Assembly (NCBI RefSeq): GCF_037975245.1
Contig: NC_092569.1
Coordinates: 6,008,501-6,072,500, forward strand
DNA length: 64,000 nt
Origin: Apostichopus japonicus
Taxonomy: Eukaryota > Echinodermata > Holothuroidea > Aspidochirotida > Stichopodidae
Direction: 5' to 3'
The notes under the pieces are model-generated. The model ran no database searches, had not been told where the DNA came from, and worked only from the letters and a program-made list of their open reading frames with translations. How positions within the stretch are numbered: the stretch's first letter is position 1; every line of letters begins with the position of its first letter. This document shows, piece after piece, positions 4,771 through 64,000 of this stretch. The position numbers and the translations under genes were made by a program.

Positions 4771-4775
4771 CACAG

Positions 4776-12940: not shown

Positions 12941-12944
12941 TGAA

Positions 12945-42800: not shown

Positions 42801-45800
42801 CCAGGTACTTTCATTCGGACAACCAAACAATCCTTGGGACAACCAAATTATGAAGGCAGAGTTGTCCGAAGGACAACTTTAAAATTTTCCTAGAAATGAG
42901 CCCTAATAATGTACTTTAGTTTGTTTGCAAAACACATTTGCATACCAGTTCTCTTAGTATCATCTCATGTCTGTGGTTTTTTATCATACCGTGTTGCTGG
43001 GATCATCTGTCGTGCCACATGATATGGATTCAGTATTTAGACATATCACAAAACTATCGAGTTGTGTTGTAGTTTGGTACTGCAAAATACCCTGATATGG
43101 TTGGTGTATAGACACTTCACAACAAGTACGAGTAACTGTATCCCTCTCTTCCTGTTGAATTATATTCCATACCTGGCACCTCTATGTGTTTCTTGGCTAG
43201 TATATAACTGCATTTACTTCAGTCACATTTATAATATGATTAGACGTTACATTGTGTTACAACAACTTTTTAACTTTTGTTAGAATATATTTTCAGAAAT
43301 TTATCTGACCCGATAAAATCAAGTCTCACACCCTGATTGACCCTAAGAGATCTTCCTACATATCCACATCAAAATGACTGTTAAGTACTGAGTACGCAAC
43401 CATCCAATTTCAAACGCATCCAATTTCAAGGTAGAAAACTGGAATTGAAAATTTTTTAAAAATTAAAAAAAAGGAAGAAAAACAGGATTTTGTGCTGTGG
43501 TAAGTTTCAAGAAAAGTCACCCAAGATAAAAGCCTAGGGATGCAAACCAGACAACTGAACTGATTCAATCTAATCCCCAGTCCCCCCCCCCCTTACATTG
43601 AGACTTTGATCGTATGATCATGATGATATCACATTAAATGTGTGTCACGAGTCCCTTGTAAAGGGAAGAGATACTGTATGCCGTGTTTCCTTGAAAATTC
43701 ATTTGTGGCTGCTTTGTTTCGGAGAGCAAATGGGCCGGCTCACTTCACGAGATCTATCACATTCAAATTGTAACTTTGGTATAAACAGAACCACAAAATG
43801 AATAATTACAAACAGAATAATTTACCGAGGGCACTTTCGTTGACGCTGTAGACCACAATGTCCTGGATACAGCTAAACTTGCTGGAGAAGGAAGGAATGG
43901 GTCCCTTGGTCCTCAAGAAATTATCAGATTCTTCGGGATTCTTGGGAAGTCCTTCCAGAGAGACCTGAGAAACAAACAGAAGGGTCATTGGTTAAGGGAG
44001 GTGAGGAAGACAGAAGTTTCTCGGTAATCGTGTGTGATCATCTTTCCATTCTCCAGCACATTGGTTCCCGGACAACTCCCCCCGGACGAACTCTCCCCTG
44101 GACGATTTCCCCCCGGACGATTCCCACCCGGACAATTGCCAACCCTGAAAATTGCCCCACTATTGCCCTCCAATAGTGCATTGTTTGAAAGAAAAAAATA
44201 TGAAAAACAAAATATGGCATATTTATTCTCTCTCACAAGGTGGCTGACATAACCCAGTCAGCAACAGGACAACTTTTGCTGTACAATGCCAAGTAGGGCA
44301 GAGGAAAACTGGCTATAAAAATACTACTGACCTATGTTGAGTATTTAAGGTGTGATTAAAAACAGAAAAACTTTTATAACTTCTGTAGCAAATCAGTACA
44401 AAACTAATTTGGGCATTTTCTTGTTTGTTTTAATCTCAAGCATAAATATTTCTGTATGAAGAAAATAAAACTGCAGACACAACCAACTCTCTGTAATATT
44501 GGATAATATCAAACAAATTTGAAGAAATAGTACTTACTATTATACTGTGGTAAAATACCTGAACACATCTTGTAATGTAAATACACCAGCTATGTGGTTA
44601 ATCATACTCTTACAAACTGTTAGTACTTTAACAGGAGTGGTGTAAACATTGACAGAGAACACAGTTCTCAGAATCTCTTAAATAAATCAAAACCAGTGAC
44701 TTGCACATACCTTACCAACATGAAAACAACCCCAGACGGCTTCACGATTAGCTACGTATGTTCATTGTATGTATTGTACAAAAGTCATCAATGCTAGTCT
44801 CATTAACTAATCATTCAAAATACAGATTTAGAAGGTGTTTCTGGTGGCTCTAAATTTTGATTGCTTAGCAATGTTGCTGAAAATTGTCTGTAGGGGGAGA
44901 CCCAAACCTTCATAGCATTTTGTATCACAAAGGTATAAATTTTTCAACCTTTTTTTTTTATATTTTGAAAATGCATCTGGCAATAGCAGAATGACTGTTG
45001 TCATCAGGCAAACATTCCAAATATTTCAGGTTTCAAGGATAACTCAAAAAGAAGATGATAATATCCTTAGTAAAGCTTTTGAAGAGCATTTGCCCAGATG
45101 ACATCACAGACCCCCTACTGTGATCAAACTTCCTGGAGTAGTTGAAGGTTTAGCCAGTTAAAATAGAGTTACATTCAATCAAACATCTCTTGAGTTAGGG
45201 ACCAGATATTAAACTTGGGGTTTTCAAATAGCAGTTTGAAATAGTTTCCTTTTCAGTATATAAGTTTCACATTGTCACCAGAAACATCCTTGAAAATATC
45301 AGCATAACAAGGACAACTAGACCAATGGTACCTGATCAATCATAAAAGACAGTGGCGTAGGAAGGTACTTTTGAGTGGGGGGGGGGGCTGAAGACTGATG
45401 GCCGGCCTGGGGGAGGGGTCTACGGGGAGGGGGTGTCCCCCTCCCCTTTGGATTTTTTTTGCATTTCCAGGTGGCCTCAGATGCAATTTGGTGCAATATA
45501 GCACACTTCAACAACCACTCCATTTTGTAAATAATTTTGCATTTTCACCTGGCCTTAGATGCAATTTGGTGCTCCAAATGAGATTTTTTTCTCATTTGGA
45601 AATGAAAAAGGGGATTTCTGACTTGCGAATCGGGGGGGGGGGGGCAGAATGATACTTCCGCCCCCCCCATATTTTTCACTGGGGGGGCTGGGACCCCCCA
45701 GCCCCCCCGGTTCCTACGCCCTTGATAAAAGATAGTCACTCTCCATAACAGAAAACTAACTGAGTGAGTTCATTATTACAGTTTATTAAACTGCACTCAG

Positions 45801-48800
45801 TTGTTTCTGCTGGCAGTGGAGTGTGTAATTTTATACAGTCCTCCAGAGCCGTGATATTTTGAGATTATCAGTCAAACCCTATGCCTGCATATTCTTATCT
45901 CTCAATTACGATACTCCGCTAAATGTTGTGTTCAACAAATCTGATACCTACCCTTGGTGCAGGCTTTGTGATACTGCAGGTGCCCTGGAAATCTATCTGT
46001 TCCTTTCGGACAAAGAAGTTATGTTTGTAGATCAGCTCGTGCATGATTTCTCCCTCCCTGGTTCCGAGAGCGACTCCGTTATAAGCGGCAGTGTTGAGGT
46101 CGCTGACATTCAGGAACACTGGGTCTGTGATGACATTGCCCGAAACATCGAAGAGGTAGCATCTAACAAACGGGAACAAGAGAGAGAAACTATGAAAATA
46201 GCTGGTTTTTTTAAGCAGCAGAATAACTACTTCCCTTATTTTCATCCGATTTAAATGATATTGGTGATACACATTTAACATGCAGGAATCAAGGTTGTAG
46301 CTCCCTTCATAAAGTAATAAGCACAGTGGCAGTAATGTCGACCAGAAGCAAATTCTGCATTTCAGTGCAGACGATGTTGCAAAATTAATCAAAACTTGGT
46401 GCAAATGCAGCAAAAGAGATGACAGCATATCACATTATCTGTTTTATAAAATACTTAATTACGTTTGGCTACCTCCACCCCTAGGATATACCAACTGTTT
46501 GGAGCGTAATGAAGTTAGCAAACGACACTGACCTAGTCTGACAACCTGGTTCACCACTGGGACAGTTGTAATGCTGTCCGCAGGAATAGGGCACATCGGG
46601 GTCTTGCATGATGTTGTAAATCTTCTGATGGAAGTCGGTGTAGAGCAGATCAAGTGAAGTGACCGCCTCGACCTTGACCGATGAACATCTGGTGTGAGTT
46701 GTGTCGCCCGGGGCAACACTCTTGTAGCAGTAACCTAAACAGAATTAAAGCAATATGTAGGGGTTAACTGTGATATAAGAACGATGTTATATTAACACTG
46801 AAGAATCAGATAAAAGTGAAATCATCAAGAAACAGCATATTCTAAGCTCCTATAAAGCGTCCCTTCAGTGTCCCCCGGAGAATATTACACTACTGACACA
46901 AACAGCTGCTAACTTCAATCTGTTTATGTCTCACATTGGAAGCTGTTATCAATTTTAAAGGGACAAGAGTATTACACTACTGACACAAACAACTGCTAGC
47001 TTCAATCTCATTATGTCTCACATAAGAAGCTGTTATCAATGTTAAAGTGACAAGAGATGTTACATAGTACACACAAGCAGCTGCTAGCTTCAATCTCATT
47101 ATGTCTCACATAAGAAGCTGTTATCAATGTTAAAGTGACAAGAGATGTTACACTGCAGACACAAACAGCTGCTAGCTTCAATCTTATTATGTCTCACATA
47201 AGAAGCTGTTATCAATGTTAAAGTGACAAGAGATGTTACATAGTACACACAAGCAGCTGCTAGCTTTAATCTCATTATGTCTCACATAAGAAGCTGTTAT
47301 CAATGTTAAAGTGACAAGAGATGTTACATAGTACACACAAGCAGCTGCTAGCTTCAATCTCATTATGTCTCACATAAGAAGCTGTTATCAATGTTAAAGT
47401 GACAAGAGATGTTACATTGCAGACACAAGCAGCTGCTAGCTGCAATCTCTTCATGACTTACATCAACAGCTGTTATTACCGTTTTCAAGTGTCTATTCTA
47501 TAGCTGCCTATTCTTGGATTAGGTTGACTAAATATCTCTAAATAAAAGTCAACCCATTTTTAAGTAACCAGCATATATGCTACCCACCTGATTGGCAGTC
47601 CTTTGAACTGTGACATTTGCACCCTGGTGGCTTTTTCCCGCTACCCTGGCATTCTTCTTGGGTCACATTTGGCATGCCTTCATACACAGCTTGTGATATG
47701 CTGATGATCTTTCCCACACCAGCGGCGTCCATGTAGGCCATTGACATACTGGTACGATCAGGATTTTTTATCACTCTCTTGTACCATGGTCGTCTGGGGT
47801 AGGGTTAAATAATTAGGGAAAGAAGAGTTCCTCATGATATTGTTTAGTTTGTATTTTTTGAATCATTTGACAGGCAACCAAACTGACGTTTCCTAGTGAT
47901 AAAACCTTATCATTCTTAATCTTGAGGAGGAAAGTTTTCTTAAAATCTTCATAGCATTAAAAAGAAATTATTACTATGCATATGTTTTATTTATATAGAA
48001 TAATCTGATAGGATCCAAACACGAGAAAATATGAAAAAGGCAATACTTGACAACAGCACAGACAATTCTGAATAATTCTTAATAATAATCCTTGATAATA
48101 TGCCTCCTGCCAATCTCAATTACAATCTATTTAGAATTGCTAACATTGCAAAAAGTTACAAATATCAATTCCAAATCGATTAATGTATTCAGCACCCTCT
48201 GCTGAATATGGTCCATCCTCCCTCCCAAGCCACACCCTACCTCTCCAGTGCCCCCCCCTCACCTTCCATTCTCCATCTCCAGTACCCATTCACTCTTTCT
48301 AGTCCCAACCTCCCTTCCATCTTCAGCTCTCCTTTTAGACAAACTCCTCCGCACCCACATGTCCCCTGCCCAGTCACATATTCCCTGCCCAGTCACACCC
48401 TCCCTCCCACCCTCAGTAGATACTACTGCATGACCTATGACATCTTACTTTGTGGGGTCATACACCCCACCCTCAGAAAATACAACTGCACGACCAATGA
48501 CATCTTACTTTGTAGGGTCATACACCCCACCCTCAGTAGATACTACTGCATGACCTATGACATCTTACTTTGTAGGGTCATACACCCCACCCTCAGTAGA
48601 TACTACTGCATGACCGATGACATCTTACTTTGTAGGGTCATACACCCCACCCTCAGTAGATACTACTGCATGACCGATGACATATTACTTTGTAGGGTCA
48701 TACACCCCACCCTCAGTAGATACTACTGCATGACCGATGACATATTACTTTGTAGGGTCATACACCCCACCCTCAGTAGATACTACTGCATGACCGATGA

Positions 48801-51800
48801 CATCTTACTTTGTAGGGTCATACACCCCACCCTCAGTAGATACTACTGCATGACCAATGACATCTTACTTTGTAGGGTCATACACCCCACCCTCAGTAGA
48901 TACTACTGAATGACCGATGACATCTTACTTTGTAGGGTCATACACCCCACCCTCAGTAGATACTACTGCATGACCAATGACATCTTACTTTGTAGGGTCA
49001 TACACCCCACCCTCAGTAGATACTACTGCATGACCAATGACATCTTACTTTGTAGGGTCATACACCCCACCCTCAGTAGATACTACTGCATGACCAATGA
49101 CATCTTACTTTGTAGGGTCATACACCCCACCCTCAGTAGATACTACTGCATGACCGATGACATCTTACTTTGTAGGGTCATACACCCCACCCTCAGTAGA
49201 TACTACTGCATGACCAATGACATCTTACTTTGTAGGGTCATACACCCCACCCTCAGTAGATACTACTGCATGACCAATGACATCTTACTTTGTAGGGTCA
49301 TACACCCCACCCTCAGTAGATACTACTGCATGACCGATGACATCTTACTTTGTAGGGTCATACACCCCACCCTCAGTAGATACTACTGCATGACCAATGA
49401 CATATTACTTTGTAGGGTCATACACCCCACCCTCAGTAGATACTACTGCATGACCAATGACATCTTACTTTGTAGGGTCATACACCCCACCCTCAGTAGA
49501 TACTACTGCATGACCAATGACATCTTACTTTGTAGGGTCATACACCCCACCCTCAGTAGATACTACTGCATGACCTACGACATCTTACTTTGTAGGGTCA
49601 TACACCCCACCCTCAGTAGATACTACTGCATGACCTATGACATCTTACTTTGTAGGGTCATACACCCCACCCTCAGTAGATACTACTGCATGACCGATGA
49701 CATCTTACTTTGTAGGGTCATACACCCCACCCTCAGTAGATACTACTGCATGACCAATGACATCTTACTTTGTAGGGTCATACACCCCACCCTCAGTAGA
49801 ACTACTGCATGACCGATGACATCTTACTATGTAGGGTCATACACCCCACCCTCAGTAGATACTACTGCATGACCCATGACATCTTACTTTGTAGGGTCAA
49901 ACACCCCACCCTCAGTAGATACTACTGCATGACCGATGACATCTTACTTTGTAGGGTCATACACCCCACCCTCAGTAGATACTACTGCATGACCAATGAC
50001 ATCTTACTTTGTAGGGTCATACACCCCACCCTCAGTAGATACTACTGCATGACCTATGACATCTTATTTTGTAGGGTCATACACCCCACCCTCAGTAGAT
50101 ACTACTGCATGACCAATGACATCTTATTTTGTAGAGTCATACACCCCACCCTCAGTAGATACTACTGCATGACCAATGACATCTTACTTTGTAGGGTCAT
50201 ACACCCCACCCTCAGTAGATACTACTGCATGACCAATGACATCTTATTTTGTAGAGTCATACACCCCACCCTCAGTAGATACTACTGCATGACCGATGAC
50301 ATCTTACTTTGTAGGGTCATACACCCCACCCTCAGTAGATACTACTGCATGACCGATGACATCTTACTTTGTAGGGTCATACACCCCACCCTCAGTAGAT
50401 ACTACTGCATGACCGATGACATCTTACTTTGTAGGGTCATACACCCCACCCTCAGTAGATACTACTGCATGACCGATGACATCTTACTTTGTAGGGTCAT
50501 ACACCCCACCCTCAGTAGATACTACTGCATGACCGATGACATCTTACTTTGTAGGGTCAAACACCCCACCCTCAGTAGATATAATACAACACCTAATTAT
50601 ATTCCAGCCATTTGATTGGTCAATTGCTCGTCGATTGCACGCAAAATCCACTCTATTGCATGCTATGATGATAGAACCATGCGTTATACTATTTTGATAG
50701 CACTTTTTTCAATGGTAAGAGAGCAGAGAAACCTGTCTGTTCAAAACAATCTGTTGCATGAGTGCATTTTACATCCAATTATATCCAAATTTGAAGGTGT
50801 TGTATAAAACAAATAATGAATGGTTTCCATTCGTGCAATAGTGCAAATATTTCATTCGTTGAAAGATGTAATTTGTTCCATTCAACTCGGCTGCGCCTCA
50901 TTGAATGGAACATTCCATCTTTCAACTCATGAAATATTTGCACTATTGCACTCATAACCATTCATTATTTGTATACTACTGCATGACCGATGACATCTTA
51001 CTTTGTAGGGTCATAAGCTCTGGAGGACCTATGTCCGGGATATGTCCGGAATACTCCACTCCTACATCCGATGTATGTCCACTTCACTTCCTTCAAGAGA
51101 GGTGAGTTTCTGTTCCTCCAGACCTCCTCGATTTGAGACGTTATCAAAACATCGGCCCTGAGGGAACAAAGAAATTAAAGTTTCAAGTTAGCACTTTTCA
51201 CATTTAAACTGTGCAAATATGACAAACTAGAGAAATGTTCACTACTGCAACTTGGTTTTTATTGCCTCAAATGTACCCTTTTTTTTTTTCTTTTACTCTC
51301 TCTCCATCACCAAGCATCATAATATAATATTTGCATATATTCTGTGACAAAGCAAGCACTAAACAGATTGAAAAAAAACTTTCTGGGGCTTTCACAAGAA
51401 GTTCTTTAATAGAGGTAAGCAGCCACATTTGGATATGTTGAAAGACTAATAGCTACTAGGACTTATTTCCACCTTGGGTAGCAATCCAATTAACAATTTA
51501 AGCTCCTAATAAAATTGACCGACCAACTCAGAAGAGCATTTCAGGTGAGAAAAGTTACAGTATGTTGATGGCACATTACTTTTAGATGGAAAGAACTTGT
51601 ACTGTTTAAAACTTATTTCTATAAGAGCTTTCTAGCTTTGTCTTCAAGCTTGGCTCTGATTGGCTGATATGGTATCATATGACCATACTTGTTATTCTGG
51701 CTATAACTTACGGTAGATTTCATTAACATGATAAAATCCCTGGTAAGGTAACATTTGTGGAGGGTAAAATGAAGATTGATTGTTGCTTGGTGACTAGATT

Positions 51801-54800
51801 TGGGTCTAGATTGCTAATACATCACAAACAGATAGCCTATAATGACAAATCCTTTCAAAGTTGTCTGATGCAAATTGCCTTTATTCGCTCAACAATAGCA
51901 CTTGCTCGATTAGATGATACATCATAACGTTACTTCAACAAGGAGAAGCGATACTGTTGTTTCCTCTCTAAAATACTTCTGAACATTGTCATTGGGTCCT
52001 AATATTACAGGTGATATTTTTAAGTTTCTTACAACCTTAACAGTAACCACACTCGACAAGAGGGCCCAATGAAATCACTGAGGGCAATATAGCAGAACCT
52101 TTAAGATCAGTCATCATTGGGCTGGCCAGCCTAACCAGTTACAGCCAGATACAAAAGGTGGCAAAATAATTGCCTTCTCCTGCTGATTATTATAAATAAG
52201 CACCAGAAAACCAATGCTGCCAACTGGTTCTCCAGTGTGTGTGAAGATTCATTCGATTACCTGTCGGATAATTTATTTAACCCCCTTCCCTTAATCCTCT
52301 CTTTGTCTTGCCACTGTGTATCTCCTACCTCTCCTCTTACCCTGTTGGTTTCTTTCTTTCTTCTCTCCATCCCTTGTCTACTAATCCCCTTACATCTATC
52401 TCTTTGTGTTCACCGTGCTCATTAACCTGTCTGTATTCTGTGTATGTTTTTGTCCCTTCTGTTACTGTTACTTGTCATTTAGCCTCTGAAGAAGATCCTG
52501 CTAGGATCGAAACATCAGGCCAACTTACTTTTACACATTCTCTTACACAGGCTCTCTAATGGATAAGCAGTTTGCTAACAGTTTTATTTTATTTAGATAT
52601 ATTATTAGTATACTGTAAACATACAGCATACATACAATGCATATATATCGTAGAAATAATGATGACTGCATCAAACACTGAAGATGGATTCTTGTAGTGT
52701 GGTTTGCAGGTATGCAAAATCGTTATAAACCTGGAAACTTCTTTACGATATATGATTGAAGAGCAAAGTTATCTACACCACAAGCTGACTTACTTTAATT
52801 TAATGAACTTGATACTGTCGTTAACTGGTAAGACCTAATTACCGAGCAATTCTGACTTTTGTTTTACAGAAATAGCTCTTGTACCCATAATGCACTAGCT
52901 ACCTCTGAGACTTCCGAACCAGTTTCATTACGACACACACAATTGCCGTCTGCTATATAAGATCTTCTTGCTATCAAGAATCTTTTGTTTTTTTATAATA
53001 GAGCCTGTCAGCTTAGGGTTCAACAAACGTTCACTTTAATCAATCTCTCCAGGAATCAGAACGAGTTAGATCCAGTTTCAGATCTCGCTAGCACTAGAAA
53101 GTTATTAAGTGATCAGGTTAAGTTATCGGCACCAGACTCGCTGGTAGGACGAATAGCTTAGGATGATGAGACTTGCCTCGTGTTTTTCTCAAACCATCCT
53201 CCATTATTGCATCCGAGGTCAGGGTCGTCTTCGTTCATAAATTTGTGAGCTCGGATCGTCTTGTTGGTGAGATCGGCGTCGAACAGAAACTGGTTTGGGT
53301 TACAGTAACATTTCGGCGCCAGACGAAACGAGGACCACAGGTACGAGACCCGGAGATTCGGGTACTTGGGCTCGTCAAACTTCACGTCGAGTTTATCAAA
53401 TTCACCTACAAAAATGAAGATACACGGAGTGGTCCCAATTGTTTGGCAGACGAAATGCAGGAAGACATGAATGAAAGATTAAAAATGGAAAATGTTCAGA
53501 AGAATTGTCAGATTTAGTAAAAAAACAATTTGTTGGAAATGTCAAAGTTTAAAGGGGACACAGACCAAAACCATCATTTTAAGGTTATATGGAATAGAAT
53601 TTATTTGTGGACATCCCCCCCCCCCCCCCAAAAAAAAAAACAACTAGAGAAAAATCTTCCCCCGTTTGGGAGATATCCATGTGATACGCAAGTCACGTCT
53701 ACGAACTGTCATTTTATAAATCTGTGACATCAAAGGGCCAGAAAATCTGGAACCATTTACTTTAATTTTCGCTGTTTTTCTTTATCATAATTTCAGGGTG
53801 AAATTTTAACACAATGACACTGAAATTAGGTCAGATTGAGAGGTTCAATATTTGAGATTCAGCATTTGCAAAAGCCATCTCCATCACAGCAAACAAACAC
53901 TGTAATAAATAAAGGAAAGCAAAGAGAAATGAATCCATGTGGCTTAATAATGTCACATTTAATATTTTAGTATCAGCATTTGCAAAAAGCGATCTTCATT
54001 ACAGTAAGCAAACACTGTAATAAATATTAATAAATAAAGTAAAGCAAAGAGAAATGAATCCATGTGACTTAATAATGTCACATTTAATATTTTAGTATCA
54101 GCATTTGCAAAAAGCGATCTTCATTACAGTAAGCAAACACTGTAATAAATATTAATAAATAAAGGAAAGCAAAGAGAAATGAATCCATGTGGCTTAATGA
54201 TGTCACATTTAATATTTTAGTACCAGCATTTGCAAAAAGCGATCTTCATTACAGTAAGCAAACACTGTAATAAATATTAATAAATAAAGTAAAGCAAAGA
54301 GAAATGAATCCATGTGGCTTAATGATGTCACATATAATATTTTAGTACCAGCATTTGCAAAAAGCGATCTTCATTACAGTAAGCAAACACTGTAATAAAT
54401 ATTAATAAATAAAGGAAAGCAAAGAGAAATGAATCCATGTGGCTTAATTATGTCACATTTAATATTTTAGTACCAGCACTTGCTAAAAGCGATCTTCATT
54501 ACAGTTAGCAAGCACTGTAATAAATATTAATAAATAAAGGAAAGCCAAACGAAATGAATCCATGTGGCTTAATAATGTCACATTTAATATTTTAGTACCA
54601 GCATTTGCAAAAAGCGATCTTCATTACAGTAAGCAAACACTGTAATAAATATTAATAATAAGGAAAGCAAAACGAAATGAATCCATGTGGCTTAATAATG
54701 TCACCTTTAGACTTGATCAAGTCTCAGACTTGTGTCTTAAGGAGTATTCAATCTATGATATCTCCTGATTGGAATGAGTTTTTTCTCAGCTGTTTGGGGA

Positions 54801-55431
54801 AGTTGTTCATGACAGTTACCTCTATCACATAGATAAATAATGATAGTTGGGTCTGTTTTTCCTTTAAGGAGATTCATATACTTATTGTATTATTATATGA
54901 TGTGGCTGGCTAGATTAAAAATATACACAAAATGTGGACGACAGGTACTGCATCTTCCAAATGCAGGATGAACTGGTTGATATTTTTTTTACAGATTCTT
55001 CCTCAACATATTTTGTTCTTATTCCTTCTGTTTCCTGTGCAAGAAAGTTCTGCATTCCTACATTTAGCTTCAGGATTCTCAAGGGTAATATGAGGGGTAG
55101 CAGGAGATGGGTGGGAAGGCGCTCCTGGTCACCCTCACTGTTTATCCATTGTAGTCAAATGAGGGTCATAAAATTTCTTTACCATCCAAGACTTAACTTG
55201 GATCATGCAAAAACCCAAATTCATACCTTTTTTTCTAACTCATCAATGGTGCCATTTTAATTGAATAAAAAAAGTTGACTTAGTGCAGAACTTAAGTCTT
55301 GATATATCATAGTCTTAGAAAAAAGACAAAAATTGGGCGCAATCAATGTATCTCTAGCTATTCCAGTTTTTCAAGATATTCACTTTCAAAAGACTAACTC
55401 TTTGGAATTGAATTTTCCTTTAAGTCTACAA

Positions 55432-55491
<60 letters not shown>

Positions 55492-55504
55492 GTGATGGTG
55501 ATGG

Positions 55505-55556
<52 letters not shown>

Positions 55557-58500
55557 GATGGTGGTGGTGATGATGATGATGGTGGCTACTCAGTGACAGG
55601 TTTAATTATTATTCATGTTAATACATTGTTTAATAAATTCTAATACCTCAACCGAAAGACGTTCTTGTAACTTCATATCAACAACAGAGCATCCTTGTGT
55701 GATATTCAATTCTACTTGTCATTTGTAGCCATAAGAGTTTTACGTTTGCCCGTTGAATTCTCTTGTGTTGCATCTGAGGAACTGACCTAATTGGTCTGTG
55801 TGTTAGACTAGCATGTCCAGTCACTTTAATTGATGAGCCTCAGCTGTCTAAAGGGTCTTTTCTCAAAATTGGAAAATGTCACAGAAATACAACCCTGGAC
55901 TGATGGAAGTGGTTTAAACAGGTCTACATCAAATCAAAATTAATTGTGTTTGTCAAGTCATCCTGTAGTGAACTTAAACTGTCAGTAAAAGTAGAAAACT
56001 TTCTTTTTTTTGGAGGGGGCGGGGAGCCAAAAAAGGAACTATGATATCATTCACATTATGCGCATCCAATTTACAGAAACAAAATAAGGATCCATAAAAT
56101 AAGAGATAACTTGGCAAGAACAGGACAATATTTGCAAATGGCGGTCATAGTCATTTTGACCACTTTCATAAATCGTTGTCATAGAAACGTTTTACTCACC
56201 TGGCAGAGCTTTTTTGGCTGCGTCTCTGCTATATTCGATCAATAAATTGAAATAGGATGTCGGAAATTTCTCTTTCGTCTCCGGTTCGACTACTATTCTT
56301 AAGATCTGGCGGCCGAGAAAGTCGAGAGAGAAGATTAATGAAAACAGTATTTAGAAAAGATGATAGCAACTTTGTATAGTGGTACAGTGCCTTGTGTAAT
56401 TGACAGCCATTTGTCTTTTAACCTGAGCATTGGCGCTGGAGATGATCAGATTTAAAAGGCACTTATTTTAACAATTTTATTGCAGTGAAAGCAATATTGG
56501 GGATAAACCCCCCATGGCATGTTCTCAACACTTCAATATAACAATATTTTATTAGGTTGTTTGTAGTTGGAATGTCAGTTCACATGCAAACATTGTTAAA
56601 ACAAGACTACCTTAAATGAGCCTGAGAGTGTGACTAGGACTTCTCAGACACTGCTTGGCCAAAAACTAGGTAAAGGGGTTCCTTCTGCAAAGGGGACAGG
56701 GTCCCACTTTCCCTTTGAAAACTCATATGTGTATGTCAAGTGGTGTCACATGTTTCAGCTTTTCCAACAGATGCATCAACCCATAGCTAATCAGGGATGT
56801 GCCCAGGATTTCCTGAGTGCCAGGGTATACTGATCGCCGTCCTGGGGGAAGGGTCTAAGGGGAGGTGTGACATTTTTTTGATTTTGAAGTTGTGTACAGA
56901 GCTAGTGAAGTGTGATACTGCATGCTGCAGATTAAAGCCACGCCTACTCCATATCTCAGCACCTGTGTTTACGTGAATTTGACAAATGGGGGTAAACGAG
57001 GATACATGTGGCCCAATTTATGTTGAATATAATGTTATGAATGTCGGTATTTTATCCTGGCAATCCTCCATAGTTATTGTAATGTGCAACTTACTTGTCA
57101 GAGAAAAAATATATTCGCACAGAAAATTTGGAATGTGAAAAAGTTAGTTAACTAGCGTAGAAGTGAAAAAAAAACATATATAAAATATAACAAATAAAAC
57201 ACTTGTTGGTATCCTCAAACCTGTTCAAGGATTACTTTACACTGATGGCCACTGACTAAAAAGTGCAACAATTATTTGACATACAACTCGCCTTTTTCTC
57301 CTGTTAGACCATTTATTTTTCAAAGCTCAATATTTCATAGAAATGCTCTTTAGAGTAAACCACTGTCACGATGTTTTAACTGCCTTGAACGTTTTCCTTC
57401 ATTGTTTTCTTTTAACGTTTTTATTACTTTATTAATTGATTTTGCTATTCAGTCTTTTTGCTCCCTGTTTGTACTTTTACATATTAACTTTTCATTCTTT
57501 TAGGATATTGATATTTTTAACTTCGTGTTTGCTTGCATCGATAAATTTGTTTGTTAACTTTTAATGGAATAAAACTAAGATGAAAGTAAATAGAGTTAGA
57601 AATTACCTCGTCGGATGGTTTCAGAACAAATGCAAACGAGTAGACGGAATCTTTTACTCTGTCGTAGAAATATGTCACGGACACGCCGTTTTTATTCAGA
57701 GTTTTAGAACCCTTCTTCCCTTCCTTCATATTTCTCTCGACCTCTGAGAATTCTTCCGGTTTTCCGGCCGTCTGCTCAAGTTTTGAGATCGGGATGAACA
57801 TTGGATCATCCATGAGCTATGAGGGAAGAGGCAAAGAACAGCATTAATGTTCTCATATTTAAAAGAGGCCACACAGCGAAACATCATTATTAATCTATGT
57901 GATCGAGACAACTTCACCAAACAGTTAAGAAACAAATGATTCCATTTGGGGAGATACCAGAGATTAAATGTCATTTTTCACACGCGAGGCCAAAGACTTG
58001 ATCAAGTTTATATATGACATCATTGAGCCACATGTGCTTATAAAGGTTTTTCGATGTCTTTCATTTCTCCTGTACATGATTTATTTTCAGTAATAGAGAT
58101 TAACTATGCAAATGCTGAATTTAAATATTGAAGCTCTTAACATGACCTACTTATGGCAATTGTTTCATTTCATTATTAACCCTGTTAAAATTTAATCATT
58201 TTATAATATAAACGTATAAAAACCAAGAGAAGGGTTTCACTTCACTTCAGATTTGAATGGCACTGTGACATCATAGTTTTACAAAATTACAGCTCCCAGA
58301 CCTGCCTTTTAATAACAGATATCATCCAAAATGGAGCAAGATTTTTTTCTTAGGTGTATTGGGGGCAGTAGTTGTACTTCACAAGGATCTCTGTCACATA
58401 AACTAAAGATGATTAAAGGGTTTTGTGTCTCCTTCTAACTTTCTTTGGTTTTTACTTCAAACATCAATCACGGTCCAACTCTATCGTTCTGAGTATCATC

Positions 58501-61500
58501 TAAGGCAAGTCAAACAAGATAGAAGAGCCTACAGTTTAGGTACAAAAAATAACCCCATTATTTCATGAGGACTACATCATATCATCAAACTAATGTTTAT
58601 CTAGCCCCAGTCCACTCATATCAGGACTACAATGATATAATTATTAGGTTGAGTTGTTCAGTATGGTAACACAATTCTATCGTAAAAGAACAGATCATAC
58701 ATGTGACATATAGTAAAAATGTGCTGTGCAGCCATGTCTGATGCTTACTAACATTAGGCATGAACCTGTTACAAATATTACCCCTTCGAAACCCTAGATT
58801 CTATCTAAGAATGGTAAGAAGCCTTCCCTGTTTCTTTCAAACTATTTCAAGCAGCATTTGGTCACCACTTGCAATAGTTTTTTTTACTACACAAATCAAC
58901 CATTAATATTGGATATGACAGCACTTGATCAACTTAAACATCCTCCTTGTTTAGATATGTAAGTATGATCAATATGCTTCAGTACAAATGGAAAGCAGTA
59001 AGTGAGGAGAGGGGGAGGAGGAGAGGGGGAGGAGGAGAGGGGGAGGAGGAGAGGGGGAGGAGGAGAGGGGGAGGAGGAGAGGGGGAGAGGGGGAGGAGGA
59101 GAGGGGGAGGAGGAGAGGGGGAGGAGGAGAGGGGGAGGAGGAGAGGGGGAGAGGGGGAGGGGGAGAGGGGGAGGAGGAGAGGGGGAGGAGGAGAGGGGGA
59201 GGAGGAGAGGGGGAGGAGAGGGGGAGGAGGAGAGGGGGAGGAGGAGAGGGGGAGGAGGAGAGGGGGAGGAGGAGAGGGGGAGGAGGAGAGGGGGAGGAGG
59301 AGAGGGGGAGGAGGAAGAGAGGGGGAGGAGGAGGAGAGGGGGAGGAGGAAGAGAGGGGGAGGAGGAGGAGGAGAGGGGGAGGAGGAGGAGAGGGGGAGGA
59401 GGAGAGGGGGAGGAGGAGAGGGGGAGGAGGAGAGGGGGAGGAGGAGAGGGGGAGGAGGAGAGGGGGAGGAGGAGAGGGGGAGGAGGAGAGGGGGAGGAGG
59501 AGAGGGGGAGGAGGAGAGGGGGAGGAGGAGAGGGGGAGGAGGAGAGGGGGAGGAGGAGAGGGGGAGAAGGAGAGGGGTTGAAGTTAAGTGTGGCTTTAAG
59601 TTTTTCCTTCTTTTAAAGGCATACAGCAAGAACAAGAAAACCATGACCATGGTAAAGGAATTATAAGCATATTTGAAAGAGAATTTTTTTTTTGACTAGC
59701 AGGAATCTATGAATATATTACCTAGCCTCTATGGAATAAATCCAGCCCTTTTGGCTATTTTTTTGCTTTCAAGAACCCCAAATTGCAAATTGTCTCCTCT
59801 TTAAGAGTAGACCAACCTACCACAGGACAAAGAGCTCAACCATTAAGCTAAGCTTGCCAATAGTCACTTCATGGTTGGGTTCTACATTTTCTACATACCA
59901 TGGATACAATTACATATCAAATCGTTCATACAACATGTTAGCTAAGTACTGTTAAAAAATAAAGTAAACAAGGAGGAAAATATAACTCATGTCATATGGA
60001 AGTAGAAAAACCTGGAATGAGTACTTGCAATGAGTACAAATTTATATATATAGATAGAGAAAGATAGACAGACAGACACATAGAAAGTCCCTGTGGAGGC
60101 TGGAGGTTGTTTTTCACTGTTCTGGATTTTGCAACTCACTACAGTTTCAACTGACTACAGTTGCAATATATATATAAATAAATATATAAATAAATATATA
60201 TATATATATGTATATATATATATGTATATGTATACGTATACATATACTATCTCTCTGTCTATCTGTCTGTCTGTCTATCTTTCTCTCTCTATATATATAA
60301 ATATATCTATATACATACATACATATATATATACATTCATACATACATACATACACGCATACATACATACATACATACATACATACATACATACATACAT
60401 ACATACATACATACATACATACATACATACATACATACATACATACATACACACATACATACATACATATACGGTACCATATATTTGACTAATAATGATG
60501 CATTTACCTTGCTACTGGCCTTCATTCTTGGGTGAAATATCGTAGCTCCTTCATTGTCAATCAGGAAGGCATACACGCTGCCCCACTGTTCATTATTGAT
60601 GATCTGCTCAATTTCGTCCAAGGTTGCATCTACACCGACCACACCGATGACACTGTATAGAATGTCAAAGATATAATGTGGTTTGCCTTTAGACATTCGT
60701 TACGAAGATTTGAAGTTCAATATTGAAGTTCAATGATCGAGATCATTACTGGAAGGCAATTTGACTGAAGGGGGCACAGTAATTGTTTATGAGGGTTCCG
60801 CAATTTTGAAGGGTATTGTTCTATGACAAGTGGTGGGGAAACCAATGTCATAAGTGGCGTCTATAACATCAGTTTATACAGAACCCTGAGTACAGGATAT
60901 TACAGTTTAATGATGCTTGCTTTATAAGTCTGCTACAGAGATAAAAGGTTGGCAGGATTCACTAAAACAGCAAGGGAATAACATCATATGGATACTACCT
61001 TAGGTAAGTTCAAAAAGTAGCTGTGATGTGAATTGTGAGAGTGGGCAGTTTCTGATACGATCATGTCTTCATTGTTATAATTCACACTTAAACATACGAT
61101 CACTAAGATGGAGCCTCTACAGCCATTGACACACAATCGAACTATCATAAAAATAATATACCAAAATGAATATTGCGTTCAAGATCTCTTTCACAAATAT
61201 TTCTAATAAATAAATAATATATATTTGCATAGCTCTTTTACATAAAAGAATATCTGAACATTTGTGCACTTTACACGAAAATAGAGAATTCTTTGTTTGA
61301 AAAGCAAATAATATGATATATATCAAATGCCAATCAAAACACAAACAATTAGCTGGACTTTGCTGACTTTCCTGTTACATATTAATTAAGATGTTTTGGT
61401 TACGTACTACACTCAGCCGATCAACCAATCACCACTCTTCAAGTGACGGGTCAGTCCACGATCACGTTAATGTATTTGCAGTCTGGCGAAACCTTTAATG

Positions 61501-63250
61501 TCCAGAGACATTTTTGTATGTCATTACATACAACATGTTAACTATGTATTTTACATATAGGTACTGTATCGTTGCATTAACAGTCCAGCATGATATCACC
61601 AGATTCCTGGCAAGTTCTATGCAAAACTTACTTACACCTGTTACTTACACACTTCTGACCTTGTTTACATTGACCAGGGCAATAAAAATTCAATCCTAGC
61701 CAGACCAGTACTATCTGTCAAGAAATACTCTTTGGCAAAATGGCAACTTGCAAGAAACAAAGAAATCTCCCCTAAGTTAACCAAGTTGGTAGTATTCCAT
61801 ATCTTCCGGTCAATCCCAGTCCCCAAGCATCTAAATACGGTTTCATACCTTCCATTCACTTTACTGATAACAGGTTTAGCTACTGTCACCATCAATCCCA
61901 GTCCCCAAGTATCTAAATACGGTTTCATACCTTCCATTCACTTAACTGATAGCCGGTTTAGCTACCGTCACCATCAATCCCAGTTCCCAAGCATCTAAAT
62001 ACGGTTTCATACCTTCTGTTCACTTTACTGATAACAGGTTTAGCTACTGTCACCATCAATCCCAGTCCCCAAGCATCTAAATACGGTTTCATACCTTCCG
62101 GTTACTTTACTGATAGCCAGTTTAGCTACGGTCACCATCAATCCCAGTCCCCAAGCATCTAAATACGGTTCCATACCTTCCGGTTACTTTACTGATAGCC
62201 GGTTTTGCTACCGTCACCATCAATCCCAGTCCCCAAGCATCTAAATACGGTTTCATACCTTCCGGATACTTTACTGATAGCCGGTTTAGTTACTGTCACC
62301 ATCAATCCCAGTCTCCAAGCATCTAAATTTGGTTTCATACCTTCCGGTCACTTTACTGATAGCCGGTTTTGCTACCGTCACCATCAATCCCAGTCCCCAA
62401 GCATCTAAATACCATTCCATACCTTCCATTCACTTAACTGATAGCCGGTTTAGCTACCGTGACCATCAATCCCAGTCCCCAAGCATCTAAATACGGTTTC
62501 ATACCTTCCGGTTACTTTACTGATAGCCGGTTTTGCTACCGTCACCATCAATCCCAGTCCCCAAGCATCTAAATACGGTTTCATACCTTCCGGTTACTTT
62601 ACTGATAGCCAGTTTAGCTACCGTCACCATCAATCCCAGTCCCCAAGCATCTAAATACGTTTTCATACCTTCCGGTTACTTTACTGATAGCCGGTTTTGC
62701 TACCGTCACCATCAATCCCAGTCCCCAAGCATCTAAATACGGTTTCATACCTTCCGGATACTTTACTGATAGCTGGTTTAGCTACTGTCACCATTAAAAC
62801 CAATTCCCAGGCATCTAAATACGGTTTCATACCTTCCGGTTACTTTACTGATAGCCGGTTTAGCTACCGTCACCATCAATCCCAATCCCCAAGCATCTAA
62901 ATACGGTTTCATACCTTCCGGATACTTTACTGATAGCTGGTTTAGCTACTGTCACCATTAAAACCAATTCCCAGGCATCTAAATACGGTTCCATACCTTC
63001 CGGTTACTTTACTGATAGCCGGTTTAGCTACCGTCACCATCAATCCCAGTCCCCAAGCATCTAAATAGGGGGCAGTCCACAGGATGTCTTTGTTGAATGT
63101 GTTCATTGACAGAAACTCAAAGTAATTGCTCATCTGAGATATCAGATTTTCACCATCGTAGAGCTTGAGCAGAGAGCCGTTGTTGTTGCATGCCAGCTTG
63201 CCGGGGAACTGTTCACCATCGTCAACGGTCAGATAGCTGAAGATCCTGGC
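36600..63250 (-). CDS. CACHD1/alpha2delta-type VWA-Cache family protein, C-terminal 12 exons (5' part off window)
   Basis: Twelve exons, 5' to 3': 62997-63250, 60508-60652, 57607-57816, 56200-56305, 53195-53405, 51002-51157, 47588-47793, 46533-46734, 45952-46162, 43826-43964, 37125-37287, 36600-36813. All use GT-AG and every phase matches, giving 738 codons and a stop. Landmarks from the first residue seen: WTAPYLDAWGLGL (58-70), GVVGVDATLDEI (88-99), AFLIDNEGATIFHP (113-126), TYIGCRSGVFRTYPG (336-350), RPWY (362-365), then MAYMDAAGVGK. These are hallmarks of the Cache regions of CACHD1, Drosophila CG16868 and calcium-channel alpha2delta proteins, which are cell-surface proteins that modulate voltage-gated calcium channels. 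Residues 718-738 form a hydrophobic tail without a cytoplasmic end, suggesting a GPI signal. The VWA domain and signal peptide would be right of the window. Which member of the family this is remains open. Confidence 0.9.
37125..37287 (-). CDS. CACHD1-like exon 11
   Basis: Acceptor TTCCTTCTACAG, donor AACAG|GTAAGT. Phase 1 in, phase 2 out. It encodes GPNGLLVGNVSGPC, then KSGYYYITALPKTNLYLLVI, ending NFNCKITNR across the junction. The upstream intron (37288-43825) is the longest seen and carries several repeats. Confidence 0.92.
37440..37560. repeat. Dispersed repeat fragment with TATAGCGC motif
   Basis: TCTATAGCGCACTACGCGCG followed by TGTGCGCTTTACA resembles the 3' part of interspersed repeats common in marine invertebrates. 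Only one copy is seen here, so the call is tentative. Confidence 0.35.
38090..38405 (-). mobile_element. Dispersed retroelement-like fragment, copy A (matches 52260-52563)
   Basis: The reverse complement aligns over about 290 bp with 52260-52563, sharing CCATCCCTTGTCTACTAATC, CTGTTACTGTTACTTGTCAT and TGAAGAAGATCCTGCTAGGA. The hairpin GATCC-loop-GGATC flanked by TGAAGA and GAAAC recalls the 3' regions of Penelope-like elements, some of which carry hammerhead-ribozyme motifs. No reverse transcriptase is visible. Confidence 0.6.
38406..39783. other. Intron sequence, nothing recognised
   Basis: Part of the 37288-43825 intron. AT-rich, no element or exon identified. Confidence 0.4.
39784..40079. 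mobile_element. MITE-like element with 7-bp TSD
   Basis: Left end AGGCGCGTAGTGAGG and right end CCTTGGCTACGCGCCCGGA form short inverted termini (GGCGCGTAG/CTACGCGCC). TCCTAGC occurs at 39777-39783 and 40080-40086 as the probable duplication. It lies inside an intron of the CACHD1-like gene. Confidence 0.72.
40540..40860 (+). mobile_element. SINE-like element with A/T-rich tail
   Basis: Contains GGAAAGGCACATTATCTCC, TTCACCCAGGTGTATAAATG, GGGCACCTG, then GATGCGCCTTGAGCACC and CTGCGCTTTATAAATCCTC. It ends in a long AATAAAATAAA-type tail. This order is typical of SINE 3' bodies widespread in marine invertebrates. The exact 5' end is uncertain. Confidence 0.6.
41239..41455. repeat. Tandem repeat of about 72 bp, three units
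   Basis: AACTAAATCTATTTTTAAAC recurs three times, each followed by AGATGAACTG, ACCATTGAAACAGAA and TTTAG(A/C)TGGTTT. This creates a spurious open frame on the minus strand. Located in the 37288-43825 intron. Confidence 0.9.
41935..42895. other. Possible inverted-repeat element in intron
   Basis: TTAAATTTAAAGGTTGTCCG near 41940 and GGACAACTTTAAAATTTTCC near 42870 are similar in inverted orientation. GGTTGTCCG and CGGACAACC motifs occur inside both ends. The element could be a diverged ~950-bp MITE, but no clear target duplication is seen. Confidence 0.35.
43826..43964 (-). CDS. CACHD1-like exon 10
   Basis: Acceptor GTTTGTTTCTCAG, donor CCCTCG|GTAAAT. Phase 0 in, phase 1 out. It encodes VSLEGLPKNPEESDNFLRTK, then SSKFSCIQDIVVYSVNESAL. 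NES is a potential glycosylation site. Confidence 0.92.
44060..44150. repeat. Short CCGGACRA-rich repeat
   Basis: Five or six copies of a 14-17 bp motif (CCCCCGGACGAT, CCACCCGGACAAT) in intron 43965-45951. Confidence 0.75.
44151..45349. other. Intron sequence with a diverged dispersed repeat (about 44930-45170)
   Basis: The segment CAGGTTTCAAGGATAACTC...GATGACATCACAGACCCCC resembles 37990-38090 (CAGGTTTCAAGGATGAATC...AGACATCACAGACGCCCC), an old interspersed family. The remainder is unrecognised AT-rich DNA. Confidence 0.5.
45350..45724 (+). mobile_element. hAT-like MITE, copy 3 (intronic)
   Basis: A 375-bp element with CAGTGGCGTAGGAAGG and GGTTCCTACGCCCTTG ends. The exact 8-bp duplication ATAAAAGA is at 45342-45349 and 45725-45732. 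It is highly similar to copies at 18 and 25847, so the family is fairly young. It sits in intron 43965-45951 of the CACHD1-like gene. Confidence 0.93.
45952..46162 (-). CDS. CACHD1-like exon 9
   Basis: Acceptor TCCCGTTTGTTAG, donor CCAAGG|GTAGGT. Phase 2 in, phase 0 out. It encodes CYLFDVSGNVITDPVF, NVSDLNTAAYNG, TREGEIMHELIYKHNFF and TCSITKPAPR. CYLFDVSGNVI matches the place where family members have a C-x-L-x-D-x-x-G-(F/Y)-(L/V)-(I/V) strand. Confidence 0.92.
46533..46734 (-). CDS. CACHD1-like exon 8
   Basis: Acceptor AATTCTGTTTAG, donor ACTAG|GTCAGT. Phase 1 in, phase 2 out. It encodes YCYKSVAPGDTTHTRC, VEAVTSLDLLYTDFHQKIYN and a cysteine-rich end (YSCGQHYNCPSGEPGC). Confidence 0.92.
46900..47460. 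repeat. 88-bp tandem repeat, about 6.5 units
   Basis: CAGCTGCTAGCTTCAATCTC recurs near 46903, 46989, 47077, 47166, 47253, 47342 and 47431, followed by AGAAGCTGTTATCAATG and GACAAGAG. It fills most of intron 46735-47587 and includes no exon sequence. Confidence 0.93.
47588..47793 (-). CDS. CACHD1-like exon 7 (RPWY, second Cache region)
   Basis: Acceptor AACCCTACCCCAG, donor AATCAG|GTGGGT. Phase 2 in, phase 1 out. It encodes RPWYKRVIKNPDRTSM, MAYMDAAGVGKIISISQAVY and then a cysteine-rich insertion (GCKCHSSKDC). RPWY followed by a (P/A)Y(M/L)DAxGxG strand is the clearest family signature in the gene. Confidence 0.94.
48412..50582 (-). repeat. 60-bp minisatellite carrying the exon 51002-51157 splice donor, about 36 units
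   Basis: On the minus strand each unit reads TATGACCCTACAAA|GTAAGATGTC, then a variable AYCGGTCATGC, ATCTACTGAGG and GTGGGGTG. The first 14 bases of the unit equal the last 14 bases of exon 51002-51157, and the next 28 equal the start of its intron, including 5' splice site AAA|GTAAGA. Units are almost identical. Variable bases are concentrated at the CATNGGTC site (A, G, T or C). One base is missing at 49801. The 60-bp length keeps all plus-strand frames open, producing long artificial reading frames. Confidence 0.97.
50583..50973. mobile_element. Composite insertion splitting the 60-bp array: MITE plus foldback
   Basis: Two parts are visible. At about 50584-50806, ATACAACACCTAATTATATT and AATTATATCC...GGTGTTGTAT form inverted ends of a ~223-bp element. 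At about 50812-50972, CAAATAATGAATGG...AATGGAACA and its reverse (CCATTCATTATTTG) form a foldback with arms of about 75 bp around CTCGGCTGCGCCTC. Array sequence resumes at 50974 (TACTACTGCATGACC). The insertion therefore happened inside an existing array, separating the real splice site from the rest. Confidence 0.82.
50974..51015 (-). repeat. First array unit overlapping the genuine 5' splice site
   Basis: This 42-bp segment matches the 60-bp unit and includes the real exon end and donor (exon base 51002, GT at 51000-51001). Identity with the array stops at 51015 inside the exon. Confidence 0.93.
51002..51157 (-). CDS. CACHD1-like exon 6 (second Cache region)
   Basis: Acceptor TTTGTTCCCTCAG, donor ACAAA|GTAAGA. 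Phase 2 both ends. It encodes ADVLITSQIEEVWRNRN, EVKWTYIGCRSGVFRTYPG and RAYDPTK, which joins RPWY of the next exon. WTYIG..(S/N)GVFR.YPG...YDPT(K/R)RPWY is characteristic of the family. Its 3' end seeds the 60-bp array. Confidence 0.94.
52260..52563 (+). mobile_element. Dispersed retroelement-like fragment, copy B (matches 38090-38405)
   Basis: Homologous to the reverse complement of 38090-38405. It contains CTGAAGA, a hairpin GATCC-TGCTA-GGATC and GAAAC, then CAACTTACTTTTACACATTC. It lies in intron 51158-53194. The motif resembles Penelope-like element 3' sequence; no coding domain remains. Confidence 0.6.
53195..53405 (-). CDS. CACHD1-like exon 5
   Basis: Acceptor TTCATTTTTGTAG. Phase 1 in. 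It encodes EFDKLDVKFDEPKYPNLRV, LWSSFRLAPKCYCNPNQFLF and HKFMNEDDPDLGCNNGGW. The donor is taken as GGATG|GTTTGAG because only phase 2 keeps the next exon open. The alternative CAA|GTCTCA 36 bases further gives phase 0 and a stop in the next exon. The 3' boundary is less certain than the others. Confidence 0.85.
53870..54705. repeat. 125-bp tandem repeat, about 6.8 units, expanded from a dispersed element
   Basis: GAATCCATGTGGCTTAATAA recurs with a 125-bp period (53931, 54056 and onward), with CAGCATTTGCAAAAAGCGAT and ACAGTAAGCAAACACTG. The flanks (53700-53870 and 54705-54870) continue the dispersed repeat also seen near 22370-22760, so the array is a local amplification within one copy. Intron 53406-56199. 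Confidence 0.92.
55431..55588. repeat. (ATG)n trinucleotide repeat with GTG interruptions
   Basis: About 50 triplets of ATG with GTG blocks, in intron 53406-56199. It gives an artificial poly-Met frame. Confidence 0.95.
56200..56305 (-). CDS. CACHD1-like exon 4
   Basis: Acceptor GACTTTCTCGGCCGCCAG, donor CTGCCAG|GTGAGT (strong). Phase 0 in, phase 1 out. It encodes ILRIVVEPETKEKFPTSYFN and LLIEYSRDAAKKALPG. Confidence 0.9.
56780..56900. repeat. Diverged fragment of the 18/25847/45350 MITE family
   Basis: CTGGGGGAAGGGTCTAAGGGG matches the interior of the MITE family (CTGGGGGAGGGGTCTAAGGGG), but both termini and any target duplication are missing. Confidence 0.5.
57607..57816 (-). CDS. CACHD1-like exon 3
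   Basis: Acceptor CTTCCCTCATAG, donor GACGAG|GTAATT. Phase 0 both ends, 70 codons. It encodes LMDDPMFIPISKLEQTAG, FSEVERNMKEGKKGSKTL and VKDSVYSFAFVLKPSDE. The last strand corresponds to the Y(S)xAxVLP segment of alpha2delta proteins. Confidence 0.93.
57930..58450 (-). repeat. Old dispersed repeat, inverted relative to 53700-54870
   Basis: The reverse complement contains GGTCATGTTAAGAGCTTCAA, ATTCAGCATTTGCATAG and a GACATCA-rich end, similar to 22370-22760 and 53700-54870. Intron 57817-60507. Confidence 0.5.
59002..59575. repeat. Pure purine 15-bp minisatellite (GAGAGGGGGAGGAGG)n
   Basis: About 570 bp without a pyrimidine on the plus strand, unit mostly 15 bp with 9-, 12- and 18-bp variants. 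Such mirror-type purine tracts can form triplex or G-quadruplex structures. It lies in intron 57817-60507, where the transcript (minus strand) would be all pyrimidine. Long open frames on both strands are artefacts. Confidence 0.97.
60088..60175 (+). mobile_element. 3' fragment of the SINE at 3100-3290
   Basis: GGAGGTTGTTTTTCACTGTTCTGGATTTTGC corresponds to the SINE body without its tRNA head, and again runs into TA-rich repeat. It is a 5'-truncated copy in intron 57817-60507. Confidence 0.65.
60308..60470. repeat. (ATAC)n tetranucleotide repeat
   Basis: About 38 copies of CATA, with TA- and TCTG-rich simple sequence to the left (60160-60305). It ends only 40 bp from the donor of exon 60508-60652. 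Confidence 0.95.
60508..60652 (-). CDS. CACHD1-like exon 2 (first Cache region)
   Basis: Acceptor TGACATTCTATACAG, donor AGCAAG|GTAAAT. Phase 2 in, phase 0 out. It encodes VIGVVGVDATLDEIEQI, WGSVYAFLIDNEG and FHPRMKASSK. GV.GVD...(D/E)(I/L) and (Y/F)(A/V)F.ID..G....HP are core Cache-region motifs of the family. Confidence 0.95.
60653..61799. other. Intron sequence, nothing recognised
   Basis: AT-rich intron between exon 60508-60652 and the 82-bp array. No element identified. Confidence 0.45.
61800..63067 (-). repeat. 82-bp minisatellite made from the exon 62997-63250 end and its splice donor, about 15.4 units
   Basis: Each unit consists of 71 bases equal to the 3' end of exon 62997-63250 (TTTAGATGCTTGGGGACTGG through ACCGGAAG on the minus strand) plus 11 bases from the start of the intron (GTATGAAACCG). 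The first unit is the exon itself. AAG|GTATG recurs every 82 bp at 62994, 62912, 62830 and on to 61846, giving 15 donor copies. The outermost copy near 61797 has lost it (AAGATATG). Units differ by scattered substitutions. Confidence 0.96.
62997..63250 (-). CDS. CACHD1-like exon 1 of those seen (first Cache region)
   Basis: Acceptor TTTTTATCTCCAAATAG. Phase 0 in. The chosen donor GGAAG|GTATGG gives phase 2, which joins the next exon in frame (TGS-VIGVVGVD). It encodes ARIFSYLTVDDGEQFPG, SNYFEFLSMNTFNKD and WTAPYLDAWGLGLMVTVAKP. Using the next donor copy 82 bp downstream would shift the frame and meet a stop (AGTAGCTAA) inside the unit. Confidence 0.93.
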
Positions 63251-64000
63251 CTATTTGGAGATAAAAAGCATATGAAAATTAACAAATTTGAGTGAAACAT
63301 TATCATATGTGGACTTTAATTCCAGTAGTTATTGAATTGCATTTATACACTGTTTTTTATCTTTAACTGGTGGGAGCGAGAATGATGAGGGTATGGCAGT
63401 AAATTTTCTTATTCAAGAAGGAAGAATGCTATAACAGAAGATCTTTTCTAAATGTAGTTAAACTACACAAGTAATTGTTCCTATTGTGATGACTATATAA
63501 TGAAACAAACACTGCTAAATATGCTTAAATGGAAAACAGACAACGACACAAACAACAAATGGGTTCTTCTATGCAGCAATGGCTAGGTTAGCTACATCTA
63601 ACATGTCCTTAACATGACAAAAAAATAAAAAATAAAAATATATATATATATATATATATCTTAATAAAAGTGAATGGAAGGAGACTTTTATTTCAAATAT
63701 AATCAGTGGCTCTAAGCCTCCTTCATTTGGCTAATAAGTTTACAAACCAGGCAGTACTCCAATAATTAAAAATAAATTACAAAGTTAACTTCTATTAAAC
63801 AATGCTATGTAAAACGCATTTGGAAGCGTCCAAAACTATTGATATTTACTTCAATGTTTGACATGACCCTTGACTCAGTAGAGCTAATAACCGAGATTGT
63901 TGGACAAAAGATTTTGATTGAGCATCATCGAAAAGAATTATCAAGATCAGCTTCAAAATCTGCCCTAAAATATTCAAATCTATTTTCCTGAAGTTGCCTT
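63251..64000. other. Intron, no further exon recognised
   Basis: Sequence 5' of the first exon seen. AT-rich with a (TA)n run at 63639-63659. The VWA-encoding exons are presumably beyond the right edge. Confidence 0.5.

Follow-up and report, generated by a model that had tools for sequence, protein, structure and literature searches.

We analysed a stretch of 64,000 nucleotides (nt) of the sea cucumber Apostichopus japonicus (contig NC_092569.1, positions 6,008,501 to 6,072,500 of the forward strand; hereafter the window) and found that a 60-bp tandem repeat begins inside a coding exon of a CACHD1-like gene, holds the 5' splice site (donor) of this exon and continues into the following intron. 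From its sequence, we consider it quite likely that this array is an intronic minisatellite laid across an exon boundary, such as is known from amphioxus as a 'mirage', that it is roughly neutral, and that the exon-joined donor is the one in use. The array is probably a tandem-repeat accident and harmless. Each unit comprises 14 exonic nt, the donor and intron sequence, i.e., the minisatellite spans the exon/intron boundary as mirages do. Further such arrays in other genes, including one over an acceptor, also support this reading.

The exons of the CACHD1-like gene lie on the minus strand at 45.9-63.3 kb of the window, with a further exon at 37125. A typed composite of the exons (398 amino acids (aa), with provisional exon ends) had its best match in PDB entry 8s7c, VWFA and cache domain-containing protein 1 (E 2.7e-27), followed by weaker matches to bacterial Cache sensors and alpha-2/delta-1; in Pfam, MCP-like_PDC_1 scored above the cut-off and dCache_1 under it. 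The exon that carries the array is a coding exon of 156 nt (51002..51157, minus strand), ends CCT ACA AA|GTAAGA in phase 2, and is flanked by introns of 2019 and 3208 bp. The upstream coding exon (53177..53405, minus strand) has the donor GAG|GCAAGT of a GC-AG intron, the phase of which fits the exon start at 51157. The downstream coding exon (47588..47793, minus strand) starts with A CGA CCA TGG (RPWYKR) and has the donor CAG|GTGGGT. The acceptors read CAG|G before exon 51157-51002 and CAG|A CGA CCA TGG before exon 47793-47588. When the three exons 53405-53177, 51157-51002 and 47793-47588 were joined, they gave a single open frame, KNTRADVLITSQIEEVWRNRNSPLLKEVKWTYIGCRSGVFRTYPGHRSSRAYDPTKRPWYKRV, which reads EKNTRADVLITSQIEEVW .. 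SSRAYDPTKRPWYKRV over both junctions of the middle exon; the intron 51001-47794 splits the K codon of AYDPTK|RPWY. Since the three joined exons read as one open frame, the donor AA|GTAAGA in phase 2 is correct. An earlier reading of the letters made with no database searches (the sequence-only reading) had placed the exon end at AAA|GTAAGA, and the spliced frame over both neighbouring junctions bears it out. As a paralogue comparison, the exon pair was used as a query against the genome (671,581,487 bases in 35 contigs) and matched its own two exons alone (2 matches from 5 first-look candidates).

Tandem Repeats Finder (TRF) reported a 60-bp unit at 48406-50581 with 36.3 copies, 97% matches and a score of 4072, and the unit list gave 36 further copies there (48406..50581, minus strand, within intron 51001-47794) in addition to the first copy, which is joined to the exon (50974..51015, minus strand). 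By sequence match, this first copy consists of 14 nt of exon (51015-51002) and 28 nt of intron, as had been claimed, or 29 nt of intron if the base shared with the flank duplication of an insertion (see below) is counted. The total is therefore 37 copies, against about 36 in the earlier reading. Unlike in the earlier description of a single array at 48412..51157, the exon-joined copy is parted from the others by the insertion. The donor 9-mer AAAGTAAGA is kept in 30 of the 37 copies. Three copies have AAAATAAGA and have lost the GT, three have AAAGTAATA and have lost G+5, and one has ATAGTAAGA, with a change at -2, so that the claim of a near-consensus donor in every copy does not stand. GT is nevertheless present at the donor in 34 copies, and the repeat units thus carry splice signals. 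TAA in the exon frame directly at the donor, which blocks read-through as had been stated, is found in 37/37 copies. The unit is a multiple of three as described, except for one unit of 59 bp. The core 25-mer of the unit, with up to two mismatches, was found at 37 places genome-wide, all of them at this array, and its backward control at none.

The sequence-only reading had further implied that dozens of U1 binding sites in one intron would affect splicing or premature polyadenylation. In such a functional platform, the 34 GT copies would recruit the U1 small nuclear ribonucleoprotein and either guard against premature cleavage and polyadenylation or tune splicing. The number of copies that keep AAAGTAAGA and the sense orientation of the array directly after the exon would fit. 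However, the donors show no higher conservation than other parts of the unit, in a comparison of low power: minor letters occupy 6/315 cells (0.0190) of the nine donor columns vs 33/1785 (0.0185) of the other 51 columns (35 of the 37 units, without the 59-bp unit and the truncated first copy, both here and in the neighbour statistics). Because 20 of the 33 non-donor minor letters sit on one hypervariable column, the donor columns are, if anything, a less conserved part of the unit, again with low power. Nothing suggests selection on the array donors, at this power. The loss of GT in three copies, the poorer fit to U1 (by eye) of the different donor AAG|GTATG in another array of the same gene, and the presence of an acceptor array elsewhere in the genome also argue against a U1 platform, which we regard as very unlikely. 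It follows from the position of the array inside the intron that it is predicted to be transcribed. The RNA fold of two units had a z of -2.75, which is without clear meaning, and a search of 45000-64000 against Rfam at gathering scores gave no match. In the consensus unit, GGGTGGGG occurs about 37 nt after the donor with a predicted pairing to the exonic ACCCTAC; the insertion has shifted GGGTGGGG away from the exon-joined donor. On the plus strand at 48184-50615, the array can be read as open 20-aa repeats (CMTNDILLCRVIHPTLSRYY), which a single TGA and a deletion of 1 bp interrupt; this open frame is likely due to chance.

The units vary at 14 of 60 columns, and adjacent units were closer to each other than in shuffled order (1.44 vs 1.71 mismatches, the latter being the mean of all pairs; permutation p 0.0076). 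Local amplification predicts this likeness. Together with the 59-bp unit it is also in keeping with length or somatic instability, as far as one assembly can tell. An assembly artefact, in which one unit was copied many times, seems extremely improbable. Tandem arrays can be misassembled, and one mirage is reported to have been assembled wrongly in a draft genome (PMC3087553), but the variation among the units, the relatedness of adjacent ones, the arrays of other sequence on other exons, and the construction of the published A. japonicus assembly from HiFi reads (PMC10344927) all speak against it.

The insertion is a copy of an abundant repeat that resembles a miniature inverted-repeat transposable element (MITE). 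It has a hairpin of inverted repeats (40-nt arms, 93%), extends over about 50582..50973 (391-392 bp, limits set by eye; no strand assigned), separates the exon-joined copy from the other 36, and is flanked by a duplicated ATA or TA (also by eye). Its 381-bp inner part as a genome query gave 885 first-look candidates, and the 40 of these that were scored had 96-100% identity over at least 377 of the 381 bp. This dispersed MITE is a separate insertion and not part of the 60-bp unit. Since it interrupts a unit, its sequence reads as that of an element which landed after the array had been built.

In amphioxus, mirages are minisatellite-like tandem duplications of an exon/intron boundary on the donor or the acceptor side (PMC3087553, PMC3902484). 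Data on Adh3 and reverse-transcription PCR of globins suggest that they are regularly spliced, and length instability, even somatic, occurs (PMC3087553). PGBD5 and TnC are further mirage genes (PMC3902484), and it has been suggested that mirages may be general in cephalochordates (PMC3087553). The sea cucumber array is like the mirages of Adh3, the globins BflGb6 and BflGb9, TnC and PGBD5 in that a boundary is duplicated in tandem and many units have splice signals. It differs in its host, an echinoderm and not a cephalochordate, in the MITE that lies between its first copy and the others, and in copy number: 37 in the CACHD1-like gene and about 42 in the array L059 (see below) vs 6 and 3 units in two BflGb6 haplotypes (PMC3087553). 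Our literature search found no echinoderm mirage among the matches listed from open-licence papers, which is not proof of absence in print. A splice signal is also duplicated in intron gain by tandem duplication of AG/GT segments (the Rogers model, cited in PMC3087553; human internal tandem repeats, PMC2812944), but the sea cucumber array makes no new intron or exon and the old intron merely grows. As read from the sequence, one intron, 51001-47794, would join both exons in frame with the repeat inside it. Ordinary intronic minisatellites have a similar unit length, likeness of adjacent units and position within an intron, whereas this array begins within an exon and its unit holds the exon end and donor. 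Introner elements are dispersed insertions, each making an intron; the array shares with them a repeated sequence with splice signals, whereas the 60-bp unit is confined to one locus, with all 37 places of its core there.

The CACHD1-like gene has a second array of this kind, as the sequence-only reading had stated. This array 1 (61810..63067, minus strand; 15.3 copies of an 82-bp unit by TRF) has its start within exon 63250-62997. Its donor AAG|GTATGG was set by phase with the next exon start at 60652, giving the joined reading KPAISKVTGSVIGVVGVDATL, and there are 15 copies of AG|GTATG. An alternative donor, TCA|GTAAAG, was ruled out by phase. Two further large arrays of the gene, at 46896-47476 and 53903-54709, overlapped no recognised exon. 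We placed these two and the two donor arrays at random among the eight exons at 45.9-64 kb and discarded any placement by which an exon would be destroyed. The probability of two or more arrays spanning a donor was 0.06, or 0.015 when the overlap was limited to 80 nt; both values are rough, as the limits of 4/8 exons are approximate and the gene has exons beyond 45.9-64 kb. Other large minisatellites (TRF, units of 36-163 bp) occur in the window at 4777-8920 and 12935-15896 and in L060 at 4658-6055 and 6818-9837, and none was seen to span an exon end on a cursory look.

In order to look at boundary arrays elsewhere, we scanned the genome for three AGGTAAGT at a spacing of 43-73 bp. There were 341 such places and 438 for the backward motif. 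We rejected this count as an enrichment test, as a place does not equal an array and the control motif lies in tetranucleotide-like repeats. Among the matches listed were at least 14 AGGTAAGT arrays on contigs C2-C5, all 14 of which were read, and eight were judged by eye to start on the 3' end of a coding exon with its own donor: L023 (VQVEEDEYRNFPHRLSSSFVDDETDG), L025 (a 46-nt exon), L030 (protein tyrosine phosphatase), L040, L042 (KRI1), L054 (class-C-G-protein-coupled-receptor-like), L055 (talin-like) and L059 (ENTPD-like). Other arrays lie at C2:4.78, 6.51, 11.35, 13.56 and 28.05 Mb, C3:11.78 Mb, C4:27.30 Mb and C5:21.71 Mb. The units of the eight judged anchored are 33-66 bp long. In seven of them, 8-44 nt of the TRF span are exonic; for L030 TRF sets the start 16 nt beyond the exon, even though the same 9-mer recurs 12 times. 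The L059 array has about 42 copies. No exon was seen by eye at the remaining six (L028, L041, L053, L056, L057 and L058). Pfam families scored above the cut-off for four of the seven scannable exon peptides (Y_phosphatase 2.3e-10, Kri1_C 7.9e-29, VBS 5e-05 and GDA1_CD39 1.8e-13). The labels ENTPD-like, KRI1 and talin-like derive from these families, and their finer reading is one we presume. For the L054 peptide, 7tm_3 was below the cut-off (0.093); the scan of the L023 and L040 peptides gave no match, and the L025 peptide (15 aa) was too short to be scanned. The L055 peptide matches talin-1 in PDB (2kvp, 2e-4), ranked after an engineered repeat protein that owes its score to repeated weak stretches.

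The corresponding acceptor scan with three TTTTNCAG gave 796 places vs 464 for the backward motif; the matches listed were mostly one interspersed satellite, with nine other arrays. Seven of these were fetched (C1:8048998 and C2:13934958 were left out, as the units listed for them are the same as in one of the seven), and by eye one, L066, is anchored on an exon and another, L069, is unclear. L066 (C1:21417700-21418540, minus strand) has a unit of about 43 bp and spans the acceptor of an NDUFB2-like exon (Pfam NADH_B2, 3.4e-08). Judged by these sequences, the genome holds a class of boundary arrays, over donors and acceptors alike.

For the 60-bp array, we infer a history that would have started with a tandem duplication of 60 bp across the exon end (14 exonic and 46 intronic bp), followed by amplification to about 37 copies by slippage or unequal exchange, and later by the MITE landing in the first copy. 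The exon-joined donor would be used, with the 156-nt exon defined across the exon, and the other array donors would be mostly silent. This donor is expected to be in use because exon definition favours the upstream of equal donors: minigenes and genome-wide analysis of equal competing 5' splice sites under exon definition found the upstream site favoured (PMC9225289). If an array donor were used, the in-frame TAA would give a truncated product or a target of nonsense-mediated decay. The array would then be tolerated and roughly neutral.

Several points weigh against this reading of a neutral mirage. Under the older proximity rule, which is centred on the intron (cited in PMC9225289), the last donor would be favoured and not the first; if splicing followed this cross-intron rule, the in-frame TAA would truncate the protein. 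As a rival reading, the array could be a poison-splice regulator, in which a part of the transcripts would be spliced from array donors, acquire the TAA and be degraded, with copy number setting the protein level. The TAA in all copies and classical in vitro work in which the donor closest to the acceptor is preferred (cited in PMC9225289) would agree with such a regulator. The upstream preference in exon-definition minigenes, the absence of measurable constraint on the array donors, and the amphioxus mirages, which are reported to leave the mRNA undisturbed (PMC3087553, PMC3902484), make it quite unlikely. The exon anchoring is also less certain than the reading by eye suggests. A mechanical exon score backs only six of the eight arrays judged anchored (null fraction <0.1), the others being L025 (0.25) and L059 (0.46, although Pfam-backed), and it is high for L058, which has a poor polypyrimidine tract and was judged not anchored. 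Because the mechanical score and the reading by eye disagree in part, the eight arrays are a judgement and not a measured rate. Lastly, 104 kb contained seven single AGGTAAGT sites, of which one was a clear exon donor by eye. The anchored share of arrays (8/14) looks above this 1/7, on small numbers, and a donor bias is possible. Minisatellites would then arise more often where introns begin than elsewhere, through R-loops or replication-transcription conflict for example, which would also fit the two donor arrays in the CACHD1-like gene. We consider it unlikely, as the places with three AGGTAAGT are not above those of the backward motif (itself a poor control), random placement gives the probabilities above for the CACHD1-like gene, and an acceptor case exists. 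Somewhat less likely still is the stronger claim that minisatellites arise here preferentially at 5' splice sites via a transcription-linked process at exon-intron junctions, as a standing genome-wide class of donor arrays. If it were true, the splicing machinery would repeatedly be forced to choose among dozens of equal donors, and intron growth would be fed.

Apart from the arrays, the window has two open frames, each about 400 aa long, at 24114-25328 and 30259-31503 (minus strand) that match rhodopsin-type G-protein-coupled receptors (7tm_1). Upstream of the CACHD1-like gene, in L061-L062, a multi-kb block recurs with the same open frames about 4 kb apart. Contig C35 carries a COX1 that, among the genetic codes 2, 4, 5, 9 and 13, reads best with table 9 (AAA as N, ATA as I and AGA as S, at sites presumed to be conserved in COX1) and has no frame longer than 300 codons with table 2; the genome is accordingly neither that of an amphioxus nor that of a vertebrate. 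Echinoderms share table 9 with flatworms, and the COX1 looks holothuroid. C29:14745-31219 contains pieces of COX1 with internal TGA, as has the mitochondrial copy; C29 may perhaps contain mitochondrial DNA.

The mirages known previously come from a few amphioxus genes, and the occurrence of boundary-spanning minisatellites in several genes of one echinoderm points to a wider kind; so the finding extends the known mirage kind to another phylum. The sea cucumber arrays, each lining up between about 4 and about 42 near-equal 5' splice sites, amount to natural constructs on which the cross-exon and cross-intron proximity rules become directly testable by ordinary RNA-seq. The array of the CACHD1-like gene is thus a natural test of how a single splice site is chosen among dozens of near-equals.

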